Assembly: GCF_018449435.1 (NCBI RefSeq)
Contig: NZ_JAHCMU010000002.1
Span: forward strand, 186,001-250,000
Origin: Flagellimonas sp. 389
GTDB lineage: Bacteria; Bacteroidota; Bacteroidia; Flavobacteriales; Flavobacteriaceae
Direction: 5' to 3'
DNA length: 64,000 nucleotides
Below are positions 7,724 through 60,887 of the stretch, in pieces; positions within the stretch are counted from its first letter, which is position 1, and every line of letters begins with the position of its first letter. The notes beneath the pieces were generated by a model. That model searched no databases, was not told the DNA's origin, and saw only the letters and a program-made list of their open reading frames with translations. The position numbers were made by a program, and so were the translations under genes.

Positions 7724-9367
7724 TTACGAAGAACAATCGCACAATTTTAGTTTTGTGCCTGGTTTTAGATTGTTACCACTAAGACCGTTCCATTCTCGTA
7801 AATTATCAATAGAAATACCTGGATATTTTCTTGAAATAGTCCAGAGTGAATCGCCTTCCTTTACAGTATGTACTTTTGAACCATCTGCTAGCGTTACTGA
7901 AGATGTTGATTTTGACGTTTTGGTTTTGGCCGTTACTTGTTTGGCAACGTATGGTTTTCTAGGGAAAATAGTAAGCCGTTGCCCTACCCTTAAATTATTG
8001 CTCCGTAAACCGTTCCATCTTTTTATCTGACTCACACCAACACCATACCGCTCTGCAATTTTTCCTAAGTAATCCCCACTTCTAACCTTATACCTAACCT
8101 GATTTTTTGCTACGGTCAATTGTGGAAGGGGTTTCTCCAGAGAATCCAGTTCTTTTTTCGCATAGGCATAGATAGCATCTTCATTGCTCACAAATTTTCC
8201 GATTTTGGTCACTGGCAATCGAAGCGTGTACGTCTTACCTTCTATTTTTGGGATGATATTAAGCTTATACGCAGGATTCAGCATTTCCAGCTCTTCCGTA
8301 CTGATATCCACTAATTTTGAAATTTGGTCAAAAGTGATAAAATTTTTTACATGTACGGTGTCCGTTTCAAAATAAGGTCTATCTGCTTTTTTGTATTGGA
8401 GTCCATGTTCTTCGGCATATTCGAAAATATACATCGTTGCCAAAAACGCCGGCAAATATCCTGCTGTTTCACGTGGAAGATTTCTACGGATATTCCAATA
8501 ATTTTTATAGCCGCCAGAACGCCTGATTGCCTTGTTTACATTACCTGGGCCAGAGTTATATGCGGCAAGGGCCAAATCCCAATCGTTAAAAATGTTATGT
8601 AGTTTTGACAAATATTTACTGGCCGCCTTGGTAGCTAAGATGGGGTCGTTTCGCTCATCCACGTAACTGCTAACATCCAAATTGTACATTTTTCCTGTAC
8701 TGTACATAAACTGCCAAAGGCCCTTGGCACCAACCCGTGACTTGGCGCGTGGGTTTAACGCTGATTCTATTATCGCCAAATATTTTATTTCCAGTGGAAT
8801 ATTATGGTTGTCCAGTTCTTGTTCAAAAAGTGGGAAATAAAACTGGCTGGCCGTTAGCATCCGCTGCATTAAATCCTTTTTCCTTGTCAAGAATGATTTT
8901 ATGACACTTTCCAACGATGGGTTGTAGGCAATATTAAAAGGTGTTTTCTCATCGATTCTGGCCAATCGTGCTTTTAAAGTATCTGTTGGTAAATCCAACA
9001 ACGTAGTCTCTTCGTTATTTGGGTTTTGAACCTCCAAGAGCATTTCACTGAACAATTGTGCGCTATTGTGCAACTCCTTTAGCCACAAACTGTCGTATCT
9101 TCTGGCTTCTTCTAAATCTTGCAATTTAAATCCTTCTTCCCCTTTTAATTCAACTAAGCCCTTCTCACCATCGATTGTATTTTCCGTTGCTTTTAGTTGT
9201 AAGGGCACTATCTCCTTTGCAGAAACAGAATCGCTCTGAGCATTCGTTATTTTTAATGTTGTATTGCCCGTTTGTTTTACTCCAATGGAATCTTGTACTT
9301 GTGCTACGAGCAATTGTATTGAAAGAAGAAGAGCTACTATTGTAACCGTTTTTAAGTTTTGATTCAT
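7724..9367 (-). CDS. MltD-like lytic transglycosylase with two LysM domains
   Basis: A secreted peptidoglycan lyase of 547 residues from the ATG at 9367, chosen because it opens a signal peptide (MNQNLKTVTIVALLLSIQLLVAQ); 29 more codons upstream are open but unlike a leader. The SLT domain shows the catalytic glutamate in YLAIIESALNPRA, then GAKGLWQFM, LALAAYNSGPGNV and LPRETAGY, the MltD signature series. Two LysM domains follow at the C-terminus (VRSGDYLGKIAERYGV and VKEGDSLWTISRKYPG), which bind glycan chains. The gene sits between pgk and the DUF4837 lipoprotein on one strand. The codons for LPRETAGY overlap a parS-like word at 8465-8480. Confidence 0.92.
   Translation of the reverse strand: MNQNLKTVTIVALLLSIQLLVAQVQDSIGVKQTGNTTLKITNAQSDSVSAKEIVPLQLKATENTIDGEKGLVELKGEEGFKLQDLEEARRYDSLWLKELHNSAQLFSEMLLEVQNPNNEETTLLDLPTDTLKARLARIDEKTPFNIAYNPSLESVIKSFLTRKKDLMQRMLTASQFYFPLFEQELDNHNIPLEIKYLAIIESALNPRAKSRVGAKGLWQFMYSTGKMYNLDVSSYVDERNDPILATKAASKYLSKLHNIFNDWDLALAAYNSGPGNVNKAIRRSGGYKNYWNIRRNLPRETAGYLPAFLATMYIFEYAEEHGLQYKKADRPYFETDTVHVKNFITFDQISKLVDISTEELEMLNPAYKLNIIPKIEGKTYTLRLPVTKIGKFVSNEDAIYAYAKKELDSLEKPLPQLTVAKNQVRYKVRSGDYLGKIAERYGVGVSQIKRWNGLRSNNLRVGQRLTIFPRKPYVAKQVTAKTKTSKSTSSVTLADGSKVHTVKEGDSLWTISRKYPGISIDNLREWNGLSGNNLKPGTKLKLCDCSS
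8465..8480. other. parS-like word within the transglycosylase gene
   Basis: TGTTTCACGTGGAAGA differs at one inner-arm base from the parS form TGTTTCACGTGGAACA. It lies in codons of a highly conserved protein motif (LPRETAGY), so protein selection alone could explain it; weak candidate. Confidence 0.25.
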
Positions 9368-9490
9368 TTTGGAAAACGCTTTTTTTATTTTTGGGGCAAA
9401 CGAAAATGGCGTTTTTTTCTGAAATAATAAAGCTTTCAGTTCAAAACATACCACTCTTAGGATTTCTCCTATTAAATCATAACGTGCTAA

Positions 9491-13929: not shown

Positions 13930-14760
13930 CTAATCCTTCTTTTTTATGATGTAAATTAGAGAAGAATGCTCTTTTGAAAAAAAAGCACTGATATTCGACC
14001 ACAATCCAATGAAAAAAGCACTGATCAAATAAAACGGATTGCCCTTGTACTTTTCGGAAAGTAGTGAAACATAAAAAGAATCGAACAACATTGGTTTTAT
14101 GGAAACAACCTCCATGTTCTCTTTTTCAAAAAGCCTTTGGATAGATAGTCTTGAAAAGTGCCATAAATGCCGAGGCACATCAAAAGCTGCCCAATGGGTT
14201 CTATAATATTTTGCGTCGAACGATTTATAATTTGGAACCGCAATGAACAGCTTTCCATTAGGTTCAAGTAGTTTTGCTATTTGTTTTATTTGTTCTTGCA
14301 GATTTGGCAAGTGTTCCAACACATGCCACATGGTGATCACTTGAAATTTATGTTCTTTTACATCTGCCAAATCTTGATGAAGTGTGATTCCCTTCTGCTC
14401 TGCATTTGTTCTCGCTTTTTCATTTGGCTCGATTCCCGCTGCCTTAAATCCTTTTGAAATCGCACTCTTTAAAAAATCACCCGTTCCAGCTCCAATATCA
14501 AGCAGCGAACTTCTTTTATCTATCTGATTATCAATTATTTGAATCTTTTTTTTGAGGCTATAGCCCTTAATCCACTGGTACAATCTATCGACCAAGGATA
14601 TTTTAGCGTCTGTATGTGAAATATAGACCTCGCTATCGTAGTATTTAGCTAAATTCTCAGGTTGGGGATGTGTAATGAGCATGTCAAATTCTTCATCTCG
14701 ACGTAGCTCAAAGGATTCTCCAGAAACAGAAAAGTCTTTAGTTTTTAAAAACAACTTCAT
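13930..14760 (-). CDS. Class I SAM-dependent methyltransferase
   Basis: A 276-residue enzyme of the Methyltransf_23 type. The SAM-binding motif I is SLLDIGAGTGDFLKSA, the acidic motif II lies in AAGIEPNEKA, and the post-II part is ITMWHVLEHLPN. A C-terminal hydrophobic segment (FYLISAFFIGLWSNISAFF) may attach it to the membrane. Substrate unknown; relatives often sit near mnmG in Flavobacteriaceae. The start overlaps the 3' end of the upstream lipoprotein gene by 23 bases, suggesting coupled translation. Confidence 0.85.
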   Translation of the reverse strand: MKLFLKTKDFSVSGESFELRRDEEFDMLITHPQPENLAKYYDSEVYISHTDAKISLVDRLYQWIKGYSLKKKIQIIDNQIDKRSSLLDIGAGTGDFLKSAISKGFKAAGIEPNEKARTNAEQKGITLHQDLADVKEHKFQVITMWHVLEHLPNLQEQIKQIAKLLEPNGKLFIAVPNYKSFDAKYYRTHWAAFDVPRHLWHFSRLSIQRLFEKENMEVVSIKPMLFDSFYVSLLSEKYKGNPFYLISAFFIGLWSNISAFFSKEHSSLIYIIKKKD

Positions 14761-15924: not shown

Positions 15925-15966
15925 AGAGAATAGATTTTGTTCCACGTGGAACAAAATCTATTCTCT
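15925..15966. other. parS: parS-like centromere site in a 42-base perfect palindrome
   Basis: Bases 15938-15953 read TGTTCCACGTGGAACA, which fits the ParB-binding consensus TGTTnCACGTGnAACA at every fixed position and is a form described in Pseudomonas. The dyad continues perfectly on both sides to 15925 and 15966, giving 21-base arms. The left part covers the stop codon of the 15958-16434 gene read from the minus strand. A second site lies at 18306-18321 beyond mnmG. The long arms may additionally form a transcript hairpin. Confidence 0.75.
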
Positions 15967-16434
15967 GATTTTTACTTCAACATTAAGCATTATACCAAGT
16001 CGTTTGGCTTTATCAGAAATCGTTTGAAACGAATTTGATTTAAAAACAGTTAAGTGTCCGCTTTCATTGAACAATCGGATAATATAGCTCTTGTTTTCCG
16101 TAGTTTTTCCAAGAGCAGCGATAGGGCCCCATTCAGCATTTTTTTTAAATAGCGCAGGGAAAACACTTATATAATCTGGAGAAAAAGAAAATTCTTTATG
16201 CTTGAAAAGTGATATTCCAAATAATTTGAAATGTTTGAAAATCTTAAAATCATCATCAAGTCGATATGAAGTTGAATATGCCAATAGCACTGTTCCAATA
16301 ATTGCCATTATTAGTATTTGATCCAACTTGGCAGCTCCTTCATAAATCAAAAACAATGTCAAGGCTAGCGTGAAAACCCCTAAAATAATAACCGTGCTCG
16401 GTTTCTGCTGTTTAAAAGAAATTGATTGCTTCAT
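15958..16434 (-). CDS. Hypothetical membrane protein
   Basis: 158 residues with two adjacent N-terminal membrane helices (about residues 14-31 and 38-55), followed by a soluble domain of alternating strands with KLFGISLFKHKEFSFSPDYIS and SYIIRLFNESGHLTVFKS, reminiscent in layout of small PH-like or signal-relay domains, but I cannot assign it. The ATG overlaps the end of mnmG by four bases (ATGA), so translation is coupled. The stop codon lies inside the parS palindrome. Confidence 0.75.
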   Translation of the reverse strand: MKQSISFKQQKPSTVIILGVFTLALTLFLIYEGAAKLDQILIMAIIGTVLLAYSTSYRLDDDFKIFKHFKLFGISLFKHKEFSFSPDYISVFPALFKKNAEWGPIAALGKTTENKSYIIRLFNESGHLTVFKSNSFQTISDKAKRLGIMLNVEVKIRE

Positions 16435-18299
16435 CTTCCCAAAAACACTAACAACACACTAACGTCTGAGGGAGAAACCCCGCTTATTCTTGAAGCTTGT
16501 GAAATAGTGACCGGTCTTATGGCTTCGAGCTTTTCCCTGGCCTCATAAGACAATGACTTTAGCTTTGAGTAATCAAAATTATCTGGGATTTTTACATTTT
16601 CAAGACGGTGCAGTTTGTCCGCATTATTCTTTTCTTTGGCTATATATCCAGAATATTTGACTTGAATCTCTGCTTGCTCCAGTACTTCGGAATTAAATTC
16701 GTGTTCGTTAACAAACGATGAGACAGATTCTAGCTGAAGCATATGCTCCATAGTCACTTTTGGTCTGGAAAAAACTTTAAAAAGCTTATCGGATTGGCGT
16801 ACTGGTGAAGAAGAAACAGATTCCAAAATAGGGTTGATCTCTTCTGGGGTAAAGCTCGTTTTTCTAAAAAAATGTACAAAGCTGTTGGACTTATGATGCT
16901 TGTCCTCCATTTTTTTTAAACGTTCTTTACTGGCCAAGCCTATATCAAAGCTTTTTGGTGTCAGCCTTAAATCGGCATTGTCTTGTCTTAGCAGCGTTCT
17001 ATACTCAGCCCTTGAAGTAAACATTCGGTACGGTTCTTCTGTACCCTTGGTAATCAAATCGTCGACCAAGACACCTATATATGCTTCATCTCTTTTTAGG
17101 ATAAAAGGTTCTCTCTCGTTGATTTTTAGATGCGCATTTATTCCCGCCATCAACCCTTGAGAGGCAGCCTCTTCATATCCCGTAGTACCATTTATCTGGC
17201 CTGCAAAATATAAATTGTTTAAGAGTTTAGTTTCTAGTGTATGTTTTAGTTGTGTAGGTGGAAAGTAGTCGTATTCTATAGCATAACCAGGTCTAAAAAA
17301 CTTAACCTTTTCAAAACCCTTTACAGATTTTAATGCGTTGTACTGAATATCTTCCGGAAGTGAAGTTGAGAATCCATTTACATAAACTTCCACAGTATGC
17401 CATCCTTCTGGTTCCACAAATATTTGATGGGAGTCCTTATCTGAGAAACGGTTTATTTTATCCTCTATTGAAGGACAATATCGCGGCCCTATACTTTTAA
17501 TCCGACCGTTGAACATTGGAGAACGGTCAAAGCCTTCACGCAACAAATCATGAACCAAAGCACTTGTATGGGTCATGTGACAATCGCGCTGTGTTTTTAG
17601 AATGTCCGTATTCAAATAAGAAAACTTCTCTGGATTTTCATCCCCTGGTTGGGGAATCATTTTATCATAATCCAAAGAACGACCATCAACTCGTGGTGGC
17701 GTTCCAGTTTTCATTCTTCCACTATCAAAACCAAAATCCACTAACTGCTCTGTGATTCCCGTCGCTGCCTTTTCACCGGCCCTGCCTCCTCCAAACTGTT
17801 TTTCACCTATATGAATGAGTCCGTTTAAAAAAGTTCCGTTCGTTAAAACAACCGCTTTGGCCCTAATGTCAATTCCCAAAGATGTTCTTACGCCAACAAT
17901 GGTATCACCTTCAACCAACAAACCGGAAACCATTTCCTGATAAAAATCTACATTTGGCGTATTCTCCAAAGCCAACCTCCACTCTTCCGCGAAGCGCATT
18001 CTGTCGTTCTGAGCACGCGGACTCCACATGGCAGGACCTTTGGATTTATTCAGCATCTTAAACTGGATTGCCGATTTATCAGTAACAATGCCGCTATAAC
18101 CTCCAAGTGCATCGATTTCACGCACTATCTGCCCTTTGGCGATTCCGCCCATAGCTGGGTTGCATGACATCTGTCCAATATTTTGAAGGTTCATGGTGAC
18201 CAACAACGTTTTGGAGCCCATATTTGCGGACGCTGCTGCGGCTTCTGCTCCTGCATGACCGCCGCCAACAACTATTACATCATAATCTTTCTCAAACAT
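16431..18299 (-). CDS. mnmG: tRNA uridine-5-carboxymethylaminomethyl modification enzyme MnmG
   Basis: A 622-residue FAD protein (GidA) that, with MnmE, modifies the wobble uridine of several tRNAs. The FAD-binding motif is VIVVGGGHAGAEAA at the N-terminus; the family signatures GPRYCPSIEDKI, PEGWHTVEVYVNGFSTS and FAGQINGTTGYEEAA are all intact, and the C-terminal helical domain ends SRISGVSPSDVSVLLVFLGR. Normal length. It follows ybeY with only two bases between and overlaps the next gene by four. Two parS-like sites flank it, in line with the frequent placement of gidA near the chromosome origin. Confidence 0.98.
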   Translation of the reverse strand: MFEKDYDVIVVGGGHAGAEAAAASANMGSKTLLVTMNLQNIGQMSCNPAMGGIAKGQIVREIDALGGYSGIVTDKSAIQFKMLNKSKGPAMWSPRAQNDRMRFAEEWRLALENTPNVDFYQEMVSGLLVEGDTIVGVRTSLGIDIRAKAVVLTNGTFLNGLIHIGEKQFGGGRAGEKAATGITEQLVDFGFDSGRMKTGTPPRVDGRSLDYDKMIPQPGDENPEKFSYLNTDILKTQRDCHMTHTSALVHDLLREGFDRSPMFNGRIKSIGPRYCPSIEDKINRFSDKDSHQIFVEPEGWHTVEVYVNGFSTSLPEDIQYNALKSVKGFEKVKFFRPGYAIEYDYFPPTQLKHTLETKLLNNLYFAGQINGTTGYEEAASQGLMAGINAHLKINEREPFILKRDEAYIGVLVDDLITKGTEEPYRMFTSRAEYRTLLRQDNADLRLTPKSFDIGLASKERLKKMEDKHHKSNSFVHFFRKTSFTPEEINPILESVSSSPVRQSDKLFKVFSRPKVTMEHMLQLESVSSFVNEHEFNSEVLEQAEIQVKYSGYIAKEKNNADKLHRLENVKIPDNFDYSKLKSLSYEAREKLEAIRPVTISQASRISGVSPSDVSVLLVFLGR

Positions 18300-18301
18300 A
18301 A

Positions 18302-18721
18302 CTAAGGTTCCACGTGGAACATTTTTATCTTTTCCTCTTCCTTTAACCTCATCTGCAGTTTCCCGTTTTCAGACTTGTCACCATAGCCAACCAAGTGCAA
18401 AATACCGTGACACATTACTCTTAATAATTCGACATTAAAATCGACTCCATACAAACCCGCATTATCAGCAACCCTCTCCGTAGAGATAAAAATATCGCCA
18501 GAAATACATTTGCCTTCTGAATAATCAAAAGTGATAATATCTGTAAGTGTGTTGTGTTGTAAATATTCCCTGTTGATTTCTAAAAGATAATCATCGTCAC
18601 AAAAGATGTAATCAATATCCCCTAAACTATAATGCTCACTTTGAATTACTCTAGTTATCCAATCGGAATATTTCTCTTTATCTTCTAAAATTAAATCCGA
18701 CTTAAAATGGAAGTCAATCAT
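18302..18721 (-). CDS. ybeY: Endoribonuclease YbeY (rRNA maturation)
   Basis: A 139-residue metal-dependent RNase acting in 16S rRNA 3' maturation and ribosome quality control. The metal-site motif reads HGILHLVGYGD (residues 105-115): the first two histidines are present, while the third ligand, histidine in E. coli, is aspartate here, a form I recall as usual in Bacteroidota. The last residues MFHVEP are encoded by the second parS-like site. The start overlaps DUF4175 by eight bases. Confidence 0.94.
   Translation of the reverse strand: MIDFHFKSDLILEDKEKYSDWITRVIQSEHYSLGDIDYIFCDDDYLLEINREYLQHNTLTDIITFDYSEGKCISGDIFISTERVADNAGLYGVDFNVELLRVMCHGILHLVGYGDKSENGKLQMRLKEEEKIKMFHVEP
18306..18321. 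other. parS: parS-like site in the 3' end of ybeY
   Basis: GGTTCCACGTGGAACA holds the 14-base perfect palindrome GTTCCACGTGGAAC (18307-18320), identical to the core of the site at 15938-15953, with only the outermost base off consensus. It forms the codons for the C-terminal FHVEP of YbeY. The two sites are 2.37 kb apart. Confidence 0.72.
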
Positions 18722-37495: not shown

Positions 37496-40400
37496 ATGAC
37501 CAATCGATTTATTAGAACAGTTCTATGCCTAATAGGCATATGGTTTATAGGCTCTAGAGTTAATGCTCAAGTAGAAGTTCCGTTTACCCCAAGACTGACA
37601 GATTCTTATATAAATATTAAGGGAGATTACACCTTTTTGTCCAATAGTATCATTAATAGGGTTGATGGGAGCAACACTGCAAACGACCCCTATAATGGTG
37701 GTTCAAACAACAATGGGTTCCATAGGGATTATATTGATGTGGACTCTGATCCTTCCACCTTTAGTTCGAGCAGTTCCACGCTTACGGTCCCTTTTTGTTC
37801 AAGGATATATTGGGCAGGATTATACTGGTCCGCCAACTACCAACAAGAAGTTGTTAGTAATACTCAGATTCCTACTCTTCCACAGAATGATACCAGAAGG
37901 TTGGACTTTACACGAATAAAATTTAGAGTGCCCGGTGGTAGCTACATTGACCTTGTTGCCGATAACGACCCCGATCCGGTTGGAGAAGAAGATGCCATTA
38001 TACATGATGATGTTTCGTTTAAAGATTCCCCCTATACCTGTTTTAAAAATGTAACCAATGAGTTACAGGCACTTGCGGACCCATCTGGAGAATATTTTGT
38101 GGGCAATGTAAGAGCAACCCGTGGTAGAAGTGTTGGTGGGGCAGGTGGTTGGACTCTAGTCGTTATTTACGAAAACCCAACATTGACCGGAAAGTACATC
38201 TCTGTTTTTGATGGCTATGCCGGTGTAAGTGGAAGTTCAAGTGCCGATATCAATGTATCTGGTTTCAATTCTATTCCTTCAGGGCCCGTAAGGGCAAGAT
38301 TAGGAGCTAGTGTTGTGGAAGGGGACAGGGGTATTACAGGTGATCAATTTAGAATACAGACTCCTTTAAACCCTGGCTTTACGAATCTTTCAAACGGAGC
38401 AAATCCAGCAAACAATTTTTTCAACTCCAATATTACTATTGATGGTGTCAACGTAACGTCCCGAAACATTACGGCGACGAATACTCTTGGATACGATTCT
38501 GATATTTTTGAGATAAGTAACCCCGCGAACAGTGTTATCGCCAATGAAGAAACCGATGCCACTTTAAGGCTTCGGACACAGGGCGATGGCTTTGGAGCCT
38601 TTTTGGTGACTTTTGGTATAGAAATCATAGAGCCAAATATTGTACTTGAGAAAAAAGTAGAAGATATTGGAGGAAATGACATTACCGGTCAAGGCGTAAA
38701 CCTTGGGCAAAGTTTAGATTATGTGCTCTCCTTTATCAATACAGGAAACGACGATGCCACCAATTACACGATTAGGGATATTCTTCCTGCAAACGTTACA
38801 TTGGATAACACCACCATAACAGTACCCACAGGTGTCACTTATACGTATAATGCCGCCACACAAGAAATCATTTTCAATGTTCCAGATAATCTGGTAGAGG
38901 AAGGTGATCCTATTTCTGAAATACGAATGCGAGTACAAGTCGCCGAAAACTGTTTTGACTTTGTGGATGCTTGTACCGATATTATAGAAAACGTTGCATT
39001 TTCTACATACGAAGGAGTTATAAACGATAACCAAATTAGTGATGACCCCAGTGTATCCGACTTCGATGATTGCGGATTTACAACGCCTGGTGCCACTAAC
39101 TTTCTTCTGGACGATCTAACGGCATGTAATTTTACAAGAACGGTACTGCTTTGTGGTGCCAATGTGGTGCTCGATGCCGGTGATGGTTTTGACAATTATA
39201 TCTGGTACCGTGATGAAAATGGAAATAACCAGATTGATGCTGGCGACACTGTTTTAAACGATGGTAACCCAGATTCCGATTTAAGTACGTTAATCGTTGA
39301 TGAAGCAGCCACTTTCATCGTAGATAAGCAAGTAGCCGATCCATGTAAGGATTTTAGGGAAATCATTGTTGTTGAGCGTTTTGGTGCAACACAATCAAAC
39401 CCAATTTCAGCATTGATCAACGATACTTCGAATACAGTTGATGGTGAAGTTGTAATCTGTCCCAATGATGGTAGCGAACTTCCAGAAATCTTTTTATGTG
39501 GATTAAATGATACCGAGCTCGTACAGATAAACATACCAGATGCAGACAGCATCGTTTGGGAAAGGCTTGACGAAGCAAGCTGTGGCGTTTCTACCCCAGA
39601 TTGTGCCAATACCAATAATTCATGTACTTGGAATTCTGCTGGTTCGGGAAGTGATTTTCTAGCTTCCGATGCTGGTGAATATCGATTGGTCATCAATTAT
39701 CAAAATGGATGTTTTAGCCGTTTTTACTTCAACATTTTCAAAAACCCACTAGACCCTCAATACACCACAAGTGACATTATTTGTAATACTGATGGAAACA
39801 TTACAGTAACCAATATGCCCATAAACTATGAGTATCGATTGATAGATCAAGATACGGGCAGTGAAGTGGTTGCATACAATTCCAACCCTAGCTTTAATAT
39901 TACGACCAATGGTGCCTATACTGTTGAAATGAGACAACAAGGCGTAACGGATGGTTGTGTCTTTGTTTTGGATAACATTGGTATACTGGATAGGGACTTC
40001 CAAGTTGATGTCGACACCAAGGATACGGACTGTAACGGTCTGGGCGAAATAGCCATTTCCATTCTTAATGTTGAAGCCCAATACTACTATGAAGTTGCTC
40101 AAGGAGGGACCACCATTGACACCTTTGGCCCTTCAAACGACAACAACTATACTTTCGAAAACCTTAATGATGGTGTTTACGACATCTCTGTCTCTACGGA
40201 TGATGGCTGTACCTATACGGAACAAGTGACCATAAACGATGTTACCGATTTAGCGGTGACTGCATTGACCACTAAAAATATTGACTGTACCGAAGGAGTA
40301 ATTACCGTTACGGGTACAGGCGGTTTCCCAAACCCTGAGTACGCTTACGCCATTTGGAGCTACAATGGTGTTGATTTATATACTACTGTAGGTGACATTC

Positions 40401-43400
40401 CTGGAAGTGCGTATCAAGTTGAGAACGATTTTTTGTTTGTTAACGGTGAAGAAGGCGATTATGAGTTTATAGTGGTCGATGGTAACAACTGTTCCTTTAT
40501 TTCGAACAGCGTGTCCATTGCAGTTGCACCTTCTGCAGTTTATACAACTGCTACAACGGATGAAACATGTTTTGGAGCTGCTGACGGAACTTTTGAAGTG
40601 AATGTTTCCAATTCAAACGGATATGCTTTATCCTACACGTTAACGTATCCGGACACATCTACCTCATCAAACACCTCTGGACTATTTACAGGGTTGCCTC
40701 AAGGCAATTATTCCCTGACCATAACACAGACCCAAGGAGCGGTTTCATGTGATTTTATCGAAACCTTTACTATTGGAGGGCAGGCATCAGCAGTAACAGC
40801 CGATGCAGACCCAGTGGTAGTACAAGATTATACGTGTTTACAAAATGGTAGTATTGAAGTTCAGAACGTATCGGGGGGCGTTGCACCTTATGAGTATAGT
40901 ATTGATGGAGTAACCTTTGTCAATGGAGTAGGAGCGGAACGCTTTTCCAACCTAGCGGACGGAACATATACTATTACCGTTAGGGATGCCAATAATTGTA
41001 CGTTCACAACAAATCAGGTCGTTTTTGAAACTGACCCACCAACCAATTTAGACTTTACCGCATCAACGCCTACTTGTCCTGCATTAACTGCTGATGTAAC
41101 AGTAACGGTAACCGATGGTATTGCACCTTTCGTTTTTGAAATTACAGCACCTTCTGCTGTACCAGCAACAACAATCACAGGAAACGCTGCAGATTTTGAT
41201 GGTCTTGCCCCGGGAACGTATACTTTCAGGGTAACTGATAGTAAGGACTGCTCTTATGAAGAAACCTTTACGGTAGACCCTATCTCCGAAATTAATGTTA
41301 CCGGACAATTAATAAGCAACATCACTTGTTTTACGGACACCGATGGAGAAATAACATTTACCGTTTCGGATTTTAATACCGACTACAATTATACGGTAAC
41401 AGGACCTTCAAACTTTTCAGCCAATAACCAAACCAATACTTCTATTCCTTTAACCGGACTAGATGATGGAACTTACGATATTACAGTAACGGACAATGTT
41501 ACAAACTGTACCGCTACAGCAAGTGTTATTGTAAATGCTCCCGCCGCCGCGTTGACTATAGCTGCTTCGGAAACACAACCGACCTGTACAACAGATGGTG
41601 GTGTAACATTGACCTCTACTGGAGGATGGGGCGGTAATACATTTACACTTGCCAATCCAGATGCAACTGCTTTTGGAACAAACAGTACAGGTGCTTTCAC
41701 TGGACTTTCACAGACAGGAACTTACACAGCATCTGTAACCGATGCAAATGGATGTGTAGTTACAACAACATTCAACTTGAATGCCGCTGTCGCTCCTGTT
41801 TTGGCCATTGTTCCCAACGATACTTGTTTCGATGATGCCGTTGGTTTGACATTAACGGCAAATGTTACTTCAGGCGGAGATGGAAACTATGAATACAGCT
41901 TAAATGGAAGTGCCTTTGGAACCAACAATGTATTCTCTGGACTGACCTCAGGAACATATACCATTAATGTAAGGGATGGTAACAATTGTACAGATTCCGA
42001 ATCCATAACCATAAATCCTGAGCTCAATGTAATAGCTTCCGCACCTAATATTACTGCTTGTGGAACGGCAACCAATGTTGATATCTCTGCTGTTGGTGGT
42101 GATGGGAATTATGTATATGCAATTGTTGCTGATGGTGCTACTGCAACCGGTTTTTCAACAACCAACCCAATTAATGTTACTGGAACAGGTGATTATGATG
42201 TTTATGTAAGGGACAATGGAGGTGCTTCCGGGTTCTGTGAAGCTTCATTCGACTTAACCATTGTGCAAGATGCGCCTTTGGCATTGGCCATTTCTGATAC
42301 GGGAATCCAATGTAGTGGAGAATCGCAGGCTACAATTACTATTACAGCATCTGGTGGAGAAGCTCCTTTTCAATATAGCATTAACAACGGAGGAACATTT
42401 CAAGCATCGAACACCTTCGTAAACCAACCTGCTGGAAGCTACAATATACGTGTGAGGGATGCCAATAACTGTACCATAAATCAAATTTATAATATATCCG
42501 AGCCGCTCACGCTTTCAGCTTCTGCAGCCGTTACACAGTTAGCGGAATGTAACCCAGGCGTTGGTGCCGAAGTTAGAATTACCAATGAAATTGGCGGAAC
42601 CGCTCCCTATGAATATAGTTTTGATGGCGGAACCAATTATGGTTCCAGTTCCATAGGCTTTCTTTTACCAGGAACACATACCCTGTACCTAAGGGATGCC
42701 AACAATTGTACCTTCGAAATGACAGTTACCATAGAGCCGGAACCTACCCCTCCTGGAGTTACGGCAACAATAGACTATGCATGTGATGGCGAGGGCATTA
42801 TTACCGTTACACCTGATAATGCAGGTTATAGCTACACTTATGAAATTGATGCAACACCAAATACACCAAATACTTCAAATGTATTTGACAATGTTGCGGT
42901 AGGGTCTCATACGATTACCGTTAATTATATCAATAATACACCACCTTCTCCAAGTGTAATCTTACTGGAGAACTTTGGTACTGGACCTAATACACCTATA
43001 AGTGAAATCGATGGGGACTATTATTGCTACGAACCACAAGATGGAAGCGCAACGGCATGTGCTGCTATAAATGGACGAACTACAAACAGTGCCAACAGTC
43101 GTATCAATGATTTGGAATATTCCGTAACCCAAGTGGTGACGTTACCTTTTAATTCTTGGTTAAGCCCTAATGATGCCTCATTGACGCCTTCTGGCCGATT
43201 TTTGGCAATTAATGTTGGTAATCCAGGTGTAAATACTGTAGTTTACGCAAAACGAGGTGTAGAAGTTGTACCCAACCTTGATATAGAAGTTTCTTTGGCC
43301 GTATTCAATTTCCTAAGACAAGGTAGATCTGGTCTCGACCCAGATATTCTAATTGAATTGGTAGATGGCTCAAACAATGTTATAGCTAGTGCTACTACCG

Positions 43401-46400
43401 GATTAGTCCCAAAAAATAACGGTGCCAACGATTGGTTCCGCCCTCCACCAATTTCATTAAACCCAGGTGCCAACAACAATATCGATATCGTAATTAGAAC
43501 TGTTGCCTCTGGAAATAATGGAAATGATATCGCAATAGATGATATACAAGCCGTACAAATACCCGAGGTCTGTGAAGGTAGTGAAACACTTAATGTAGTA
43601 ATTGAAGCAGGCAATGCGTTCGGTTCAAATATCACAGCATTTTCAGATATTTCTTGTAATACAGGAACAGATGGAAGTATCACTTTTGAAGTAGAAAATT
43701 TTGATACAACCAACGGTTTTGAATATAGGATTGGTTCTACCGGTTCCTTTACCACCTCAACAACAAGCCCCGTAGTTCTTAACGGACTAGCTGCCGGGTC
43801 TTATGTTATTGAAGTAAGGGATGTCTTGGACAATTCCTGTTCTATAACTTTAAACCAAACGTTATCAGAACCTAATGCCCTTGTCACAACGGCTTCGGTC
43901 ACTGAAGTTGCGACTTGTTCCAACGGCGGTGCAACGATTACTGCGTCAGTAACGGGAGGTACCCCTGCATATGAATATCAGCTAGAAGATAATGTAGGTG
44001 GTATTATTACGGCATATCAGGCCTCAACCGTTTTTTCTGGTCTAGGAGCAGGCGATTACATTGTAAGGGCTAGGGACACAAACTCTTGTGAAGACCCTAT
44101 CGATACTGCTATTACCGTAGCGCCTTTCGCATCTATTGCGTTTACCTCCACAGCCTGCTATGGAGGAAACAATGATGGAACCATACAAGTTGATATTACC
44201 TCTGGTAATAGTGATTACGAATTTAGTCTTAACGGTGGCCCTTGGGTAACTCCAAGTCCAACTACGGCTACAACATACACCTTTACTGGACTTGCTAACG
44301 GAAACTATACCGTTAATGTTAGAGATGGTTTTGGCTGTGAAGGAACATTGCAGAATGTAACTATTTACAGTGCTCCAACAATAGATGTTGTAGATATTAG
44401 TACATGTGCCGATGGTAGCATAACCGTAACCGCTCCAGCAGCTTTAACGAACTTGGAATATGCCTTTGTTCCCACGACTACCAGCCCTTCCGGATTGTTT
44501 TCAGGCAGTAATACGTTTGCGGTAACTACAGGAAACGATGGTGATTATGATGTATATGTAAGAGATGCTTCTGTAACAAATGCCTATTGTGATTTTATGG
44601 AGACCGTAACGGTTGGCCCTGCTACTCCTTTGACAGTGACTAATACCCCAACTGACCCACAATGTCATGATGGAGTAGGGTCAATTCAAGTTGATATCAC
44701 ATCGGGTATTGCTCCATACACAATTGAAATCATCGATTTGGATAATGGCGGAGCATCCAATCAAACCAATACCAACCAACTAACAACGATCAGGACTTAT
44801 TTTAACCTAATGCCTGGTAACTATACAATTAACGTAACTGATGCAACAGGATGTGTTGTATCTGAAACTCCAGTTACCCTGAACAACCCAGATGAGCTTA
44901 CAGCAGATATTCTGCCTATTCTTCCTCCTGATTGTGACCCAGATATAAATCTTACTGGATTTGAATTCGATAATTACCCATTAACGCTCTCTGGCACGTT
45001 AGAGTTTAGTGCCAATGGAGGTATAGACTGGCAAACCAGTGATACTTTTACTGGAATGGACCCTGTAAATGGAACCATATATGCTTCAGGCACAGTAATA
45101 AACCCTTCTATTCGGACTAGAGATGCTTCTAACAATACTTTGTGTCAGATAGACTTACCCGAATACATTATACCCTATCCTCTTGATGACTTGAATATCA
45201 CGATTTCAGCCATTATTGTGGATTGTAATGACCTTCAAGTAACAGTACAGGGAACCCAAGGTTCTCCAGGTTATGAATATACGTATTCTGATGACCCAGC
45301 CAATTTTGATGAAGGACTGGCAACTTGGACTGCGCCAACCGCTGGAAATCATGTCTTTACGGGATTAGTTCCAGGAAGAACCTATGTTTTCTATGTAAGG
45401 GATTCAAGTCCTTGTGTGCGACAAAGTACGGTTAATGTAAATGCCGTAGCCCCTCCTCCAGTGGAAATAACCGCAGATGTAACCCCTAGCTGTTTTGGCT
45501 CTAACAATGGTCAAATCACCTATACGGTAACAGAAACAAATCCCGGAGAGCTGGGAGGTACGTTCACTTGGAATTTATACGAACTTTCAAATCCAGCGGT
45601 TTCCATTAATTCCGGAACCGAAGCTGGGTTTACTTCTGGTGATTCGTTCACCGTTCCAGTGGCTCCAGTTCTAGGACTTGCCGCAGGAACATATTTTGTG
45701 GAGATTCAAGGTGCTGCCCCCAATAATTGTATGATTGGTAGCGAAAATGCCATTCTACTGGAACTGGACCAACTTACGGGAACACCTGCAGTGCTTCAAG
45801 ATATAAGTTGTGATAATCCCGGATTAATCCAAATTCAAAATCCAAATGGCGGTGGCGGAATATATACCTATACTTTGTATCATGATATTAACAATACACC
45901 TGCCAACATAGCTGATGATGTAACAATTACAACAACAACGGATAATCCGATTGAAGTTCCAGCAAATTCTGCCGCAGGAAGTTATAGAGTGTCGGTTGAA
46001 GACCAATACAGTTGTTCAAACGAACTGGGATTTGTTTCCTTAACATTGACACCAAATCCGACAATCGGAGTCATAACAGTTGATAATTGTAGTGACCCTG
46101 CAACGGTTACAATTCCTGCATCAACTACTGCAGCCCAGTTATTCTACTCTTTGGATGGCGGTACGACCTATGTGGATAATGGAGGAATTTTTAACAATGT
46201 TACTCCCGGAAGCTACAGTGTTTCTGTTCGAGATAGCAATGGATGTACTGCTTCTGCAGGGCCTGTTGTGGTTCACCCTGTACTTCAAGCAAGTGCAACA
46301 TTAACTAAGCTATTGGATTGTTCTGGTACTCCAGATGCTCAAATTACGATAGAGGTTTCAGATGGTTCAGGATTATATCACTATGAGATTTCTGATGGTT

Positions 46401-49400
46401 CAGGAATCGTAACGGCCAAGCAAGTATTGCCGAGCAATCCATTTATCTTTAATACTTCGACTGTAGAAAACTACACTATTACCGTATATGATGAAAATAC
46501 ATCGAGCCCAGCATGTACAAGAGTGTTTAATATAGCAGTAGACCCTGCTATTACTCCTACCTTCAGTGTAACGTCGCATACCGATGCGAGCTGTAATGGT
46601 GTTTCTGATGGAACCATCTCCGTAAGTGCTACGGACAACGGAATTGGCCCATACACTTTTGAAATTACTGCAGCAACCGGAATCACTCCGGCTCCTAGTT
46701 TGCCTATTGCGCCAACCACGTCAAGTAATGTCAATGCTACATTTACAGGTCTGGTAGGAAATGCTACCGGAGTAACTTACACTATAGAAGTAACAGCGGC
46801 GAATGGTTGTACAACTACCCAAACACAGGTAATCTCACAGCCAGATGCTATTGCCAATATCAATGCTACAATTGTTGAGTTTGGATGTACTTCTGGGAAC
46901 AATGGGGACAATGCTTCCATTACAATTGACGGAGCTTCCATTACAGGAGGTAGCGGAAATTACGTAATCTATGAATTTATCGAAGAAGATGACCCAAATA
47001 CCGGTGCTATTGAACCTCCAACAATCGTTCAATCTGGAAATAATCAAACTTTTATAGAAACTGATATAGCAGGTGGTGTTTACACTATAAATGTTTACGA
47101 CGAAAATGGCTGTGTTGGAACCATTTCAGAAACCATAAATCCTTTTGATGAATTGGTATCTGCAAGTGTGACCATCGATACTCCTGCAACCTGTGTTACG
47201 GGGGAAGAAATCACGATAACGGCCACTGGTTCTATAACTAACTCAACTGGAACGCCAGCTAATTACGAGTTTAGATTATTGCCTGGAGGAACGTTCCAAG
47301 CTTCTGGTAGTTTTACTGGTCTGCCTGTTGGAACCAACAACTTTGAGGTTCGGAATACAGTGACTGGATGTATCATTACAACGTCCCATGACGTTGCAGA
47401 CCCAGAAGTATTGGATTTAGATGTCGTGAGTACCACAAACATTACCTGTTTTGGTGATGCCAACGGTGAGGTGGAACTAAATCTTCAAGATGCCAGTAGC
47501 GTAACATATAGTAATGCTACTAGCTATACTTTATATTATGATGTAAACAACACACCAACAGATTTATTGGATGATGTAACCTCAACAGGAAGTGATGCTG
47601 ATGGAAGTTTTACCATAACCGGGCTTTTAGCTGGAACGTACTATGTTGAGGTTGTGGACACAAATCCACCAGGCTCTGCGTGTACGTATGGAGAATCGTT
47701 TACCATTGCCGGTCCTAATGTTGGTATCTCGGCAAGCACACAAGTTACCGAAGTTACCTGTAATTTAAATGATGGAAGTATCGAAGTAATCAATGCTGCA
47801 GGTGGATGGGGCGGATATTCCTACTATGTGGGAACAACGGCACCTTCTGCACCAGCAGACTATGTAGCTTCTCCATTATTCGAGAATCTTTCGGGCGGTG
47901 CAACCCCAGGAACAACATATCAGGTTTGGGTAAAAGATCAGTTTGATTGTGAACATCAGTTACCAAATGTAATCTTGGTTGACCCAACACCCATAACGGC
48001 AACGTTACAAATCAATGTGGAAAACTGTACCAACCTACAGGGTGAAATAGAAGTTGTTGGAACAAGTGGTGGTCAAAATAGCAACTTTACCTATCAGCTT
48101 ATCCGAAATGGAAGTACTGTTGGTTCCCCACAACCAAGTACTGTATTCTCTGGCTTAGGCGCAGGTTCTTATGAAGTATTGATTGCAGATCAATGGTCAT
48201 GTACCACAACAATTGGAACTGCAATTCTTTATGATGAAATGATTGCTACACCTACAGTTGTAAAACCGATTGATTGTACCGTAGATCCAGGAGGTCAAGT
48301 AACCATTACCGTTACCGGAGGTTCTTCTAATCTTGATTATGAAGTATTGTTCCCAGATGCAGTTACAACGGCAAATAATACTACTGGAGTGTTTACAGGT
48401 CTTACACAAATTGGAACATATACGTTTACTGTAACGGATACCGATACAGCTACACCTTGTACCGCAACAACAACACAGATTTTAGAGGATAAAGTAGATC
48501 CTATAATTTCGAATGTAGTAATGGGTCCTGTAAGCTGTAATAGTGGAACAGATGGAAGTTTAACCGTTGAGTTAGATCCTGCAACCGTGACAGACCCAAC
48601 GTATACGTACGAGCTTTATGAAATGTCGGACTTAGTGAATCCGTTTAGGTTTGCGCAAACGAGCGCTACGTTCGATAACCTTCCTGCAGGGGATTACCGT
48701 GTACGCGTAATTTCTTCAAAATCTTGTGATGATTTTTACGATGAAACCGTTACGGAACCAACACTGTTGAATGTTTCTGCTATAGCTACGCCTTTTGCTT
48801 GTAATGCAAGTAATACTGTAAACGTTTCCACTATAACAGTTACTGCTTCAGGAGGAACTGGACCTTACTTATATAGTATCGACAATGTAAATTTCCAAAC
48901 ATCGAATACATTCGATATTACGGACAACGGTTCGGTTCAAAATATTACGGTATACGTGACCGATGGGAACTCCTGTCCACAAACCGATGTAGTGGCACCA
49001 ATTCAACCCATAAATGTATTTACTGCCGCGGTGACACGCGATAACGCCATTAGCTGTAACAATGCTGAAGAAATATTGATTACAGTCACTGACAATGGAG
49101 ATCCTTCAAATACATATACCTATGAACTATTGCCTACGGGGAATCCATCTGGAACCCAAACGGGCACACCTTCAAATATCGAAGCGGAGTTCGATTTAAC
49201 AGCTCCCGGCAGCTACACGTTTAGAGTAACGGATACCAATACAGGTTGCTATTTTGATACAGCTCCTTACGAAATATTGCCTTTCGACTTGATTCAGGTT
49301 ACAGCTACGGCAACTGCACCGGCAGTTTGTTTTGGAGGTGCTGGTACTTTGGAAATAGATATTACCGGATATTCCGGTCCTTATGACTACGAAGTGTTCA

Positions 49401-54912: not shown

Positions 54913-57111
54913 TTATTCCAAAATAGTATTACTTTTCCTACCGATCAACGAAAAATCTAAATGCCGTTTTACCAAATCTGTATGCTTTACCATTACATAA
55001 ACTTCATCACCTAATTGGTACATACGTTTTGTTCGCTCGCCTATGATGGCATATTGTCTTTCATCAAATGTATAATAGTCATCTTTAATATCGCGTATTC
55101 GTACCATACCTTCACATTTATTTTCGACTATTTCCACATAAATGCCCCATTCTGTGACTCCGGATATGACACCCAGAAATTCTGAGTCCTTATGGTCCTC
55201 CATGAACTTGATCTGCATGTATTTTATAGAATCCCGTTCTGCGCTTGCCGCAAGAATCTCCATACTGGAGGAATGTTTACATTTTTCTTCGTAGACCATT
55301 TCTTTTGGCGGTTTTCCACCATCTAAATAATGCTGTAACAGTCTATGTACCATTACGTCTGGATATCTTCTTATGGGCGATGTAAAATGCGTATAGTATT
55401 CAAATCCCAAACCGTAGTGCCCTATATTTTCTGTGGTATAGGTTGCCTTGCTCATACTTCTAATGGTAAGGGTATCCACAAGGTTTTGCTCTTTCTTTCC
55501 CTTTACGTCCTTCAAGAGTTGATTTAAAGAGCTGTTAAGACTCTTTTTGTCCCTAAGGTTTATACTATGACCAAATCTTGAAATAACTCCGTTTAGCGCC
55601 ATTAATTTTTCTTCGTCTGGCTCATCATGAATACGGTAGACAAAGGTTTTCTTTTGTTTACCTATAAATTCTGCGACTTTTTTATTTGCCAAAAGCATGA
55701 ACTCTTCAATCAATTTATTGGCATCTTTTGCTTCTTTAAAATAAACACCTTCTGGTTCATTGTTTTCGGATAAATTGAATCTTACCTCAATTTTATCAAA
55801 AGAGATGGCACCATCGTCCATGCGTTGTTTTCGCATTATTTTGGCCAATCTATCAAAAGTCAATGTTGCTTCCACAACTTCGTCAGAGACTTTATAACCC
55901 GACTCCCTAATAGAGATATCGTCTGGAATTGTTCCTTTTCCTGTCTCTATAATGTGCTGTGCTTCTTCGTAGGCAAATCGTTCGTTGGAATCAATTACCG
56001 TTCTCCCAAACCATTGCCCTATCAAATTTGCTTTGGAGTCCATTTCAAAAACAGCGGAAAATGTATATTTATCTTCGTTTGGTCGAAGGGAACACGCATT
56101 ATTGGACAACACCTCGGGCAACATGGGAACCACTCTATCCACAAGATAAACTGAAGTTGCCCTTTCATATGCTTCGTCTTCCAAAACTGTATTTGGTTGT
56201 AAATAATGAGAAACATCCGCAATATGTATACCTATTTCATAATTACCGTTTTCCATTTTTTGAAAGGAAAGCGCATCATCAAAATCCTTGGCATCTTTGG
56301 GATCTATGGTAAATGTGAGCACATCCCGCATATCCCTTCTTTTTGCAATTTCAGATTCCTTAATGGAGGTATCCAACGTATTGGCAAATTGCTCGACTTC
56401 ATACGGAAATTCATAAGGCAGTCCGTACTCTGCCAAAATGGAGTGTATTTCGGTATTGTGTTCTCCTGGTTTGCCAAGAATTTGTGTTACCTCTCCGTAA
56501 GGTGAATCTGTATTATCCGGCCATTCTCCTAAATCTACCAACACTTTATCCCCGTCTTCCGCTTTTTTTAGCTTTTCCATGGGCACAAAAATATCTGTAT
56601 ACATTTTTGGGTCGGACGGTCTTATAAACGCGAACGTCTTTTGTTTGTCAACAATTCCAACATAGGAGTTTTTTTTGCGCTCAATAACTTTTGATATTTC
56701 TCCCTCCGCTTTTTTTCCTTTGCGTTTAGGTTTAAGAAAAACTTCAACAGTATCGCCGTGCAATGCTTTGTTCAATCTATTGTAAGGAACAAAAACGTCA
56801 TCATCCAAATCATCAACTACAATGTAGGCGTTTCCACTGGTAGTCAAATCAACCTTTCCTGTAAAATACGTGTGGAGTGAAGGTTTCTTCTTAAACTTTC
56901 CTTTCTCTTCCTCTATAATTCTATCACTTGCTTTGAGCTGACCCAAACGCTTAATAAGTTCGTTACGCCCTTGTGTATCGGTAATACCAAGCTTTGCACT
57001 GATCTGTTTATAATTAAAGGTTTTTGAAGGTTCTTTTTCAAGTACTGTAAAAATGCCTCTGGTAATCTCGTTCTTTCGCTGACTTCTGGTCCTCTTCTTT
57101 TTTTTTGACAT
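54913..57111 (-). CDS. rnr: Ribonuclease R
   Basis: A 732-residue processive 3'-5' exoribonuclease (RNB family) that degrades structured RNA. The N-terminus has a winged-helix region (FNYKQISAKLGITDTQGRNEL), then cold-shock/OB domains, the RNB catalytic core with the acidic cluster FTIDPKDAKDFDDALSF and YCHFTSPIRRYPD-like THFTSPIRRYPDVMVHRLL, and a C-terminal S1 domain (GVTEWGIYVEIVENKCEGMV). Complete and typical in length. It heads a leftward group with the GIN-domain and LysE genes; the unusual AT-rich spacer lies upstream. Confidence 0.96.
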   Translation of the reverse strand: MSKKKKRTRSQRKNEITRGIFTVLEKEPSKTFNYKQISAKLGITDTQGRNELIKRLGQLKASDRIIEEEKGKFKKKPSLHTYFTGKVDLTTSGNAYIVVDDLDDDVFVPYNRLNKALHGDTVEVFLKPKRKGKKAEGEISKVIERKKNSYVGIVDKQKTFAFIRPSDPKMYTDIFVPMEKLKKAEDGDKVLVDLGEWPDNTDSPYGEVTQILGKPGEHNTEIHSILAEYGLPYEFPYEVEQFANTLDTSIKESEIAKRRDMRDVLTFTIDPKDAKDFDDALSFQKMENGNYEIGIHIADVSHYLQPNTVLEDEAYERATSVYLVDRVVPMLPEVLSNNACSLRPNEDKYTFSAVFEMDSKANLIGQWFGRTVIDSNERFAYEEAQHIIETGKGTIPDDISIRESGYKVSDEVVEATLTFDRLAKIMRKQRMDDGAISFDKIEVRFNLSENNEPEGVYFKEAKDANKLIEEFMLLANKKVAEFIGKQKKTFVYRIHDEPDEEKLMALNGVISRFGHSINLRDKKSLNSSLNQLLKDVKGKKEQNLVDTLTIRSMSKATYTTENIGHYGLGFEYYTHFTSPIRRYPDVMVHRLLQHYLDGGKPPKEMVYEEKCKHSSSMEILAASAERDSIKYMQIKFMEDHKDSEFLGVISGVTEWGIYVEIVENKCEGMVRIRDIKDDYYTFDERQYAIIGERTKRMYQLGDEVYVMVKHTDLVKRHLDFSLIGRKSNTILE

Positions 57112-57706
57112 TTATAATTTTAATTTTTCGAAAAGTACAAATTATAATCCTTGACCTTAGTACGAACAGAAACTAATCGCAAATGAAAACTGATTTTATC
57201 AACAATACATATTATTACTATTTTTCTTTTTTAAAAATTTAAATAAAAATGGTGATTATGATAGTGTGTTGAAATGTGGAATAAATTATCTGAAGAAAAG
57301 TTGCTCTGAACATAGAAAAGTTTTTGTTCACAATTTGTCACATGGAATAAAATGTATAAATCAAATAGTTACGTTTTTTATAAACCATATTTGATAAGTG
57401 TTTTCAACATGGATTTATTGAAAAGTAAATGTATTTTTAATGTTAACTAGTGTTATAAAATGTTTCTTAAGTGTTGATTAATTTTTAATTGAATAGTGGT
57501 TAACGATTACCAAAAAAATCTTATTGACATTATTTTTCTAAAAATCAAAATTTAGTTGCTGCTATTTCTTTTAAAAAGATCAACAAAAACAGGGATTTTG
57601 CAATTGTCTGTGTTCTAACGTAATAAAGGTACTTAATAGTTTTTATCAACATGGCTCCATAAAAAGAATTGTACTTTTGTAATGTACCCCAATTAAAACA
57701 ATATAT
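57112..57706. other. AT-rich divergent spacer with six TCAACA-core 9-mers
   Basis: Almost 600 bases between divergent rnr and rpiB without a credible gene. It holds TTATCAACA (57196, 57643), TTTTCAACA (57401), and on either strand ATTTCAACA (57267), TAATCAACA (57472) and AGATCAACA (57577). These differ from the DnaA box TTATCCACA by one to three bases. The region is the most AT-rich of the window. It may be just a double promoter region; an origin role is a weak inference. Confidence 0.35.
57672..57679 (+). promoter_or_regulatory. -7 box of the rpiB operon
   Basis: TACTTTTG, exact TAnnTTTG match, 27 bases before the rpiB ATG. Confidence 0.5.
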
Positions 57707-58138
57707 ATGAAAATAGCCATTGGTAATGACCATGCAGGAACAGAATATAAACTTGCCATAATAGGATTGCTAAAGTCGAAAGGAATAGAAGTTATCAATT
57801 ATGGTACGGACGGAACTGAAAGTGTAGATTACCCAGATTTTGTGCATCCTGTTGCAACGGACGTTGAAGAAGGGAATGTAGATATGGGGATTGTGGTTTG
57901 CGGTAGTGGAAATGGTGCAAGTATGACCATCAACAAACACCAAAACATACGAGGTGCCCTTTGCTGGACAAAAGAGATTACAGCTTTGGCACGAGAGCAT
58001 AATGATGCTAATATTTTAAGTCTCCCTGCACGTTTTATAGCACTTTCACAAGCATTGGATATGGTAGAAACGTTTTTAAATACAAAGTTTGAAGGTGGGA
58101 GACATGAGAGAAGAATCGAAAAGATTCCATGTAGGTAA
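57707..58138 (+). CDS. rpiB: Ribose 5-phosphate isomerase B
   Basis: A 143-residue enzyme of the LacAB/RpiB family that interconverts ribose 5-phosphate and ribulose 5-phosphate. Signatures are MKIAIGNDHAGTEYK, the active-site cysteine loop GIVVCGSGNGASMTINK, AREHNDANILSLPARF and GGRHERRI. It starts a three-gene rightward group with the CDF transporter (10 bases on) and the acetyltransferase. Confidence 0.95.
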   Translation: MKIAIGNDHAGTEYKLAIIGLLKSKGIEVINYGTDGTESVDYPDFVHPVATDVEEGNVDMGIVVCGSGNGASMTINKHQNIRGALCWTKEITALAREHNDANILSLPARFIALSQALDMVETFLNTKFEGGRHERRIEKIPCR

Positions 58139-60275: not shown

Positions 60276-60887
60276 TCAATGCTGTAATTTTTTTGCGACG
60301 CCTATTTCAATTAAGAAATCCAATCGCAAAATGAGGTTTACGGGTTGCTCCACTTTATTTTTTCTAGAAAAAAATAAATACCCTTCACGCCATGAATCGA
60401 TTGCTTCCAATTGCATTTTTCCATGGAAACTCCTCGAAACTTCTGTCAAATGTTCAAAATGTTCATGGGTAAGCCCTAGGGAATTTAAATAGTCAATCAA
60501 TTTTTCCCGATTGACAAGTGTAATATAGCAGGAAGTAAAAACGCCAATTGCGTCTGTGTATATTCCCGTTATTAGCGCATAAAATTGAGTTTTCTTGTTT
60601 TTATCGAACAACCAGCCCTGTTTTTGTTTCCCATTGATTTCATAGAAAAGTTCGAAGGCAAAAGTGGGGAGATTATCGTTGAGGTAGTCTAGTTGGGCCT
60701 TTTCATCAATATAGAATTGTGAATCGTTTTTTCTGCTCTTAAAAACAACATCAACACCAGCTTTTTGTTCTTCTAGATCATGAACACGTTCAAAATCATA
60801 GTAGCGCAGGTGTTTTTTATAATACGTGTCCAGAAGCTTGGAAAGCTTTTTTTCTTTTGATAAATCCGATAGAAAACTACGCTTCAA
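60276..60887 (-). CDS. Putative type II restriction endonuclease
   Basis: 203 residues. GVDVVF (Asp46) followed by FYIDEKAQ (Asp61, Lys63) fits a PD-(D/E)xK nuclease core, and the location right behind a cytosine-5 methyltransferase gene, overlapping it by 11 bases, supports a restriction role. I do not recognise the specificity. The only plausible start is TTG at 60887; no ATG, and no other start that would leave the N-terminus (KRSFLSDLSKEKKLSKLLD) intact, is in frame. The weak start in the 3' end of the methyltransferase gene should keep nuclease levels low relative to the methylase. Confidence 0.75.
   Translation of the reverse strand: MKRSFLSDLSKEKKLSKLLDTYYKKHLRYYDFERVHDLEEQKAGVDVVFKSRKNDSQFYIDEKAQLDYLNDNLPTFAFELFYEINGKQKQGWLFDKNKKTQFYALITGIYTDAIGVFTSCYITLVNREKLIDYLNSLGLTHEHFEHLTEVSRSFHGKMQLEAIDSWREGYLFFSRKNKVEQPVNLILRLDFLIEIGVAKKLQH

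Follow-up and report, generated by a model that had tools for sequence, protein, structure and literature searches.

The region around mnmG in Flagellimonas sp. 389 raises two questions: are the two parS-like palindromes on either side of this gene centromere sites of the chromosome, and do they mark the side on which replication begins? We addressed them with the 64,000-nucleotide stretch that holds the pair (called the window below; contig C12:186001-250000), the rest of the draft genome (4,157,274 bp in 46 contigs), and relatives from the same family and phylum.

A rare pair of sites around mnmG

Throughout the draft genome, the exact 14-mer GTTCCACGTGGAAC has two copies only, at 15939-15952 and 18307-18320 of the window, 2.4 kb apart, and 100 dinucleotide-preserving shuffles of the window gave no copy of it at up to one mismatch. 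The pair is thus rare and clustered rather than scattered over the chromosome, as is the case for chromosomal parS sites. Measured against TGTTNCACGTGNAACA, the left site (15938) has no mismatch and the right site (18306) has one; against the 16-bp parS consensus TGTTTCACGTGAAACA, they have two and three mismatches, which places the left site within, and the right site outside, the two-mismatch limit taken from the available part of PMC10197239. The first-pass annotation had described two parS-like sites around mnmG, and their positions as well as the single outer mismatch of the 18306 copy are borne out. The features concerned are listed in Table 1.

Table 1. Features of the window, with positions counted from its first nucleotide
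Feature	Position	Strand	Remarks
Near-parS sequence	8465..8480	-	TCTTCCACGTGAAACA, coding LPRET, inside transglycosylase/LysM gene (7724-9454, -)
Methyltransferase gene	13930..14760	-	Usual next gene past the 3'-side parS in relatives
Perfect 42-bp palindrome	15925..15966	.	Centred on the 3'-side site
parS-like site, 3' side of mnmG	15938..15953	.	TGTTCCACGTGGAACA, full match to TGTTNCACGTGNAACA
158-aa ORF	15958..16434	-	Separates mnmG from the 3'-side site; no Pfam match
mnmG (gidA), tRNA modification enzyme	16431..18299	-	Between the two sites; Pfam GIDA 6.1e-163
ybeY	18302..18721	-	Upstream neighbour of mnmG; Pfam YbeY 5.5e-25
parS-like site, 5' side of mnmG	18306..18321	.	GGTTCCACGTGGAACA, one outer mismatch
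rnr (RNase R)	54913..57111	-	Left of candidate origin
Candidate replication origin	57112..57706	.	AT-rich rnr-rpiB gap; corrected GC-skew minimum, two TTATCAACA boxes
rpiB (ribose-5-phosphate isomerase B family)	57707..58138	+	Right of candidate origin

The placement of the sites was also as annotated, one in the coding end of ybeY and the other in a 42-base palindrome. The 18306 copy overlaps the final codons of ybeY (FHVEP-stop), and its 14-mer stops 7 bp short of the mnmG start codon. The statement that the sites flank mnmG holds for both sides but has to be qualified for the left one, which is kept from contact with the gene by the intervening 158-aa ORF.

A ParB protein with parS-type recognition residues

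The genome contains a single ParB_N match, on a contig (C23) other than that of the window. It belongs to a parA-parB operon, in which a ParA-type gene, whose P-loop KGGVGKTTTT can be read directly, lies upstream of parB; the absence of a ParB gene, which had been named beforehand as a possible objection, is therefore no longer a concern. The PDB sequence relatives of this protein are ParB/Spo0J (best 3.4e-50). A match to the ParB helix-turn-helix family was found in all of 24 family genomes and all 12 genomes of a second set, genome G099 being in both.

In the numbering of PMC7383237, as given in the part of that paper available to us, the helix-turn-helix of this ParB carries Q162, G170, K171, R173, N178, G201 and R204, and has K in place of S at position 172, Y at 179 and K at 184. 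The same part describes R173 and G201 as touching parS and conserved in ParB, with Q and R being found there in Noc; positions 179 and 184 vary, and K at 184 is termed permissive for Noc-site binding. Five of the six residues that it lists as common to ParB and Noc are present, the exception being the K at 172. Within this partial account, the genome encodes a cognate ParB with parS-type recognition residues, plus a ParA. Noc and its binding sites (NBS), known from nucleoid occlusion, offer a related DNA-binding fold and similarly shaped sites, but in the available text Noc requires the equivalents of Q173 and R201, where ParB here has R and G; the residues expected of a protein cognate to an NBS are thus not those found.

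Conservation of the arrangement in relatives

The family survey covered 149 genomes of the same family, one per genus. The motif GTTNCACGTGNAAC was present in 148 of them, in exactly two copies in 123 of the 149, and the reversed-pattern control had matches at 17 places in 16 of the 149 genomes. Among the 34 genomes with listed places, two sites are 1.9-2.4 kb apart in all except G017, described further below. Distances to mnmG were measured on 98 loci (80 named and 18 from survey genomes). After removal of one locus truncated at the edge of its contig, 97 remained; the genome of the window is among them, and several of the 18 were included as exceptions. A site lies within 600 bp of mnmG on the 5' side in 90 of these 97 loci, on the 3' side in 85, and on both sides in 81; for the named loci only, the last figure is 67 of 80. 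The phylum sample gave the motif in 111 of 118 genomes, and mnmG was present in 52 of the 56 motif loci fetched from the two surveys. Outside the family, some mnmG loci have tandem 5'-side sites instead of one site per side. Arrays of at least five parS-like sites upstream of mnmG were seen in the Flavobacterium-type loci L062, L064 and L065 and genome G102.

The neighbouring genes are kept as well. Among 67 relative loci of at least 15 kb, ybeY is present in 66 and the methyltransferase gene in 64, so that the sites belong to a conserved neighbourhood; a homologue of the 158-aa ORF was found in one of these 67 loci, plus L113 and L126. The named relatives of MnmG are from Flavobacteriaceae, the closest being that of Flagellimonas amoyensis (89% identity). 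Two loci with metagenome-assembled genome titles of Limnohabitans (L049) and Chitinophaga pinensis (L072) carry a flavobacterial-type mnmG, at 76% identity, and are probably mislabelled bins. Arms of 21 nt, as in the window, are rare among the surveyed 3'-side sites (three cases), and parS is centred in perfect palindromes of 42-46 bp in four loci (L039, L101, L145 and L154), at unrelated positions.

The exact motif was absent from eight genomes, G099 of the family set and seven of the phylum sample, and ParB was found in all eight. Paired one-mismatch sites lie beside mnmG in G178, G192, G199, G221 and G226, which are without the exact motif. Taken by itself, a one-mismatch match carries little weight, because in motif-lacking genomes the reversed control yields comparable counts; in these five, it is the pairing beside mnmG that counts. 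For G235, which has ParB and a full mnmG, the exact motif is missing and the vicinity of mnmG lacks even a one-mismatch site. No full-length mnmG match was found in the assemblies of G099 and G258; the former is a single-contig genome in which ParB is present, with neither an exact parS nor a full-length mnmG match. Motif and mnmG are on separate contigs in G182 and G208, and the loci of Capnocytophaga (L086) and Raineya (L108) had no site within the locus DNA searched. In Tenacibaculum and Polaribacter loci, the 5'-side site is kept, and several 3'-side sites have a changed core.

Position of the replication origin

The window had been annotated as origin-proximal, and the corrected skew minima on its own contig agree on this with the sampled skew of five complete relatives. 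On the contig, the cumulative minima fall at window positions 58274 for third-position skew and 57226 for skew corrected for gene orientation, some 39 kb from mnmG; without correction, the minimum falls beyond the window, at contig position 267686. The segment 220001-240000 of the contig, which holds a 4781-aa ORF (window 37496-51841), has an extreme third-position skew of -0.254.

For the five complete relatives (G115, G062, G017, G120 and G148), twenty 20-kb stretches each were sampled and gene orientation was regressed out. The best-fit origins lie, in this order, at -31, -107, +162, +23 and +80 kb from parS, and an origin placed at parS explains 0.72, 0.45, 0.16, 0.67 and 0.72 of the remaining variance. 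Placing the origin at dnaA gives the wrong sign of skew in all five. Rotations scoring at least as well as parS numbered 9, 20, 29, 9 and 9 out of 200, so that the sampled skew has to be regarded as coarse; at this resolution parS is origin-proximal, more weakly in G017 and G062.

In these five genomes, parS is separated from dnaA by 0.34-0.49 of the chromosome and from parB by 0.29-0.47. The assumed closeness to dnaA and parB therefore needs correcting: both genes are a long way from parS and the skew origin. This fits statements in the accessible parts of two papers, namely that oriC is commonly far from dnaA in Bacteroidetes (PMC4755523), and that the origin of gut species is marked by parS clusters and not by dnaA (PMC10197239). 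A search near parS for clusters of strict DnaA boxes (TTATNCACA) gave none that were striking.

A candidate oriC in the window is the gap between the divergent genes rnr and rpiB, where the GC content over 500 bp drops to 0.22, lower than anywhere else on the 365-kb contig. Its TTATCAACA boxes, only two in number, are a one-base variant of TTATCCACA, and it holds two copies of TTTTATCAACA. Such a gap lies 5.3-9.0 kb from mnmG in nine relatives with rnr and rpiB, three of which are Tenacibaculum, and in L079, for which the DNA upstream of rnr was used and rpiB was not found in it. Seven more loci (Chryseobacterium, Kaistella) have rnr and rpiB near mnmG in the same orientation. The word TTAT(C/T)AACA occurs 33 times in 10.3 kb of gaps versus 27 times in 252 kb, an enrichment that is not an independent test since the word was chosen from the same gaps and then counted there; it is absent from two of 11 gaps. 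As far as the available part of PMC4755523 describes it, the oriC of Prevotella intermedia is likewise AT-rich, carries boxes and lies at the skew origin, at a distance from dnaA. A gene for a C-5 cytosine DNA methylase is found close by, at 60877-62112 of the window.

A genome in which mnmG and parS are apart

In G017, mnmG is at 1,277,027 with no site near it, and three exact sites are found at 997,144-998,780, beside the methyltransferase gene. The distance between mnmG and parS is about 280 kb, and the 20-kb stretch that contains parS also holds rnr. The lowest-GC 500 bp of this stretch is just upstream of rnr, 5-6 kb from the first parS, and four TTAT(C/T)AACA boxes lie within or close to it. 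Here parS remains with an origin-like region though mnmG is elsewhere, which argues that parS tracks the origin and not mnmG. The coarse skew fit, however, puts the origin of this genome 142-162 kb from parS, which counts against a tight match.

Possible roles of the sites

On the basis of these sequence comparisons, the two sites flanking mnmG are very probably parS, the centromere sites at which a chromosomal ParABS system acts. Each 16-bp palindrome would be recognised by ParB dimers, which would load as CTP-dependent sliding clamps and spread across the ybeY-mnmG region, and ParA would pull the ParB-bound sister origins apart once the neighbouring origin has replicated. That ParB binds, loads as a clamp and spreads, and that segregation depends on this, is established for ParABS elsewhere; for the present genome, we infer ParB loading around mnmG from the site sequences, the ParB recognition residues and conservation. 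We propose that the pair is found on the side of the chromosome near the origin because this is where segregation begins, and that its place in short gaps beside mnmG may be owed to long-conserved ancestry.

The palindromes might instead function in RNA, terminating transcription downstream of mnmG and forming a hairpin in front of its start codon. The terminator-like score of the 42-bp palindrome, the 21-nt arms at three 3'-side sites and the 5'-side site ending 7 bp ahead of the start codon would suit such a role, but no clear T-tract is seen: the 10 nt that follow contain on average 3.69 T after 3'-side sites (n = 87) versus 3.52 after 5'-side sites (n = 133), and TTTT follows 17 of 87 versus 18 of 133. 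Many palindromes are moreover imperfect, with arms of only 3 in 43 of 134 5'-side and 37 of 87 3'-side sites, and the arms differ at N positions of the consensus, where a hairpin would need pairing and ParB would not. The tandem arrays among the 5'-side copies (L062, L064) also speak against hairpins, which leave the retention of parS without mnmG in G017 unexplained. With the T-tract signal unclear and the arms often imperfect, we rejected the terminator or hairpin as highly improbable. Binding by another transcription factor, controlling mnmG or its operon, is scarcely credible. The sites do sit tight against the gene, and many palindromic sites share the core CACGTG, but they have few copies per genome and the full parS consensus, a parS-type ParB is present in all the 24 and 12 genomes examined (G099 counted in both), and in G017 they stay near rnr with mnmG 280 kb off.

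It could also be argued that ParB binds the sites as relics of an ancestral gidA-parAB neighbourhood, the main centromere and the start of segregation being elsewhere. mnmG and parAB adjoin in many other bacteria, and the 0.29-0.47 of the chromosome that separates parAB from parS in the five complete relatives would be in keeping with a relic. Against this, the draft genome has no further exact site, and the core is kept in 148 of 149 genera; we consider a relic very unlikely.

As parS, the sites themselves are ordinary; what is of interest is how long they have stayed anchored to mnmG. The 16-bp palindrome, the ParA-ParB pair, the parS-type ParB residues and the few origin-proximal sites are shared with the ParABS systems of Bacillus subtilis and Caulobacter, from which the present case differs in that typically two sites flank mnmG, and parAB and dnaA are far off. 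The gut Bacteroidetes of PMC10197239 are similar in having a parS cluster at the skew and Hi-C origin, which is not tied to dnaA; they are not Flavobacteriaceae, however, and the sections of that paper available to us give no link to mnmG. We found no description in the literature of parS sites next to mnmG in Bacteroidota; they may be listed in Livny 2007, the principal survey of parS. The mnmG-flanking parS may serve as a DNA marker of the centromere and origin region for a large group where dnaA fails to mark the origin, and it can be used on draft genomes; that the sites go with the origin region is illustrated by G017, where mnmG has parted from them. ParB loading in flavobacteria becomes testable at two defined sites, and the rnr-rpiB gap can be named as an origin candidate.

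Weaker matches in the window

Searching the draft genome for GTTNCACGTGNAAC with one mismatch gave six more places, with a total equal to that of the reversed-pattern control; of these further places, two (8466 and 33343) fall in the window. At up to two mismatches, the window has five matches versus 2.15 expected, and eight of 100 shuffles reach five. The match at 33343, which has the changed core CAGGTG and lies within a secreted-protein gene, was taken as due to chance.

The sequence at 8465-8480 is possibly a weak third parS site, and the evidence is suggestive. Among 30 loci with LPRE, 11 encode it with precisely the TCTTCCACGTGAAACA codons, compared to 0.29 expected from codon usage, and the LPRE window ranks first of 66 four-residue windows in the gene. 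Its excess is 0.36; another window reaches 0.26, so that shared descent may account for part of the codon excess. The selection of parS-mnmG-parS as a unit, in which ParB clamps would tie mnmG expression or centromere transcription to origin copying and segregation, with a third, weaker site kept through codon choice in the cell-wall hydrolase gene, is a rather unlikely extension of the centromere reading. The 14-mer of the 8466 site is present in 24 of the 149 family genomes, the reversed-pattern control being found in one, and the changes of this type of site are spread over the MnmG tree, with a minimum of seven. In all eight of these 24 genomes for which a place of parS or mnmG was available, the 14-mer lies 4-12 kb away on the 3' side of mnmG.
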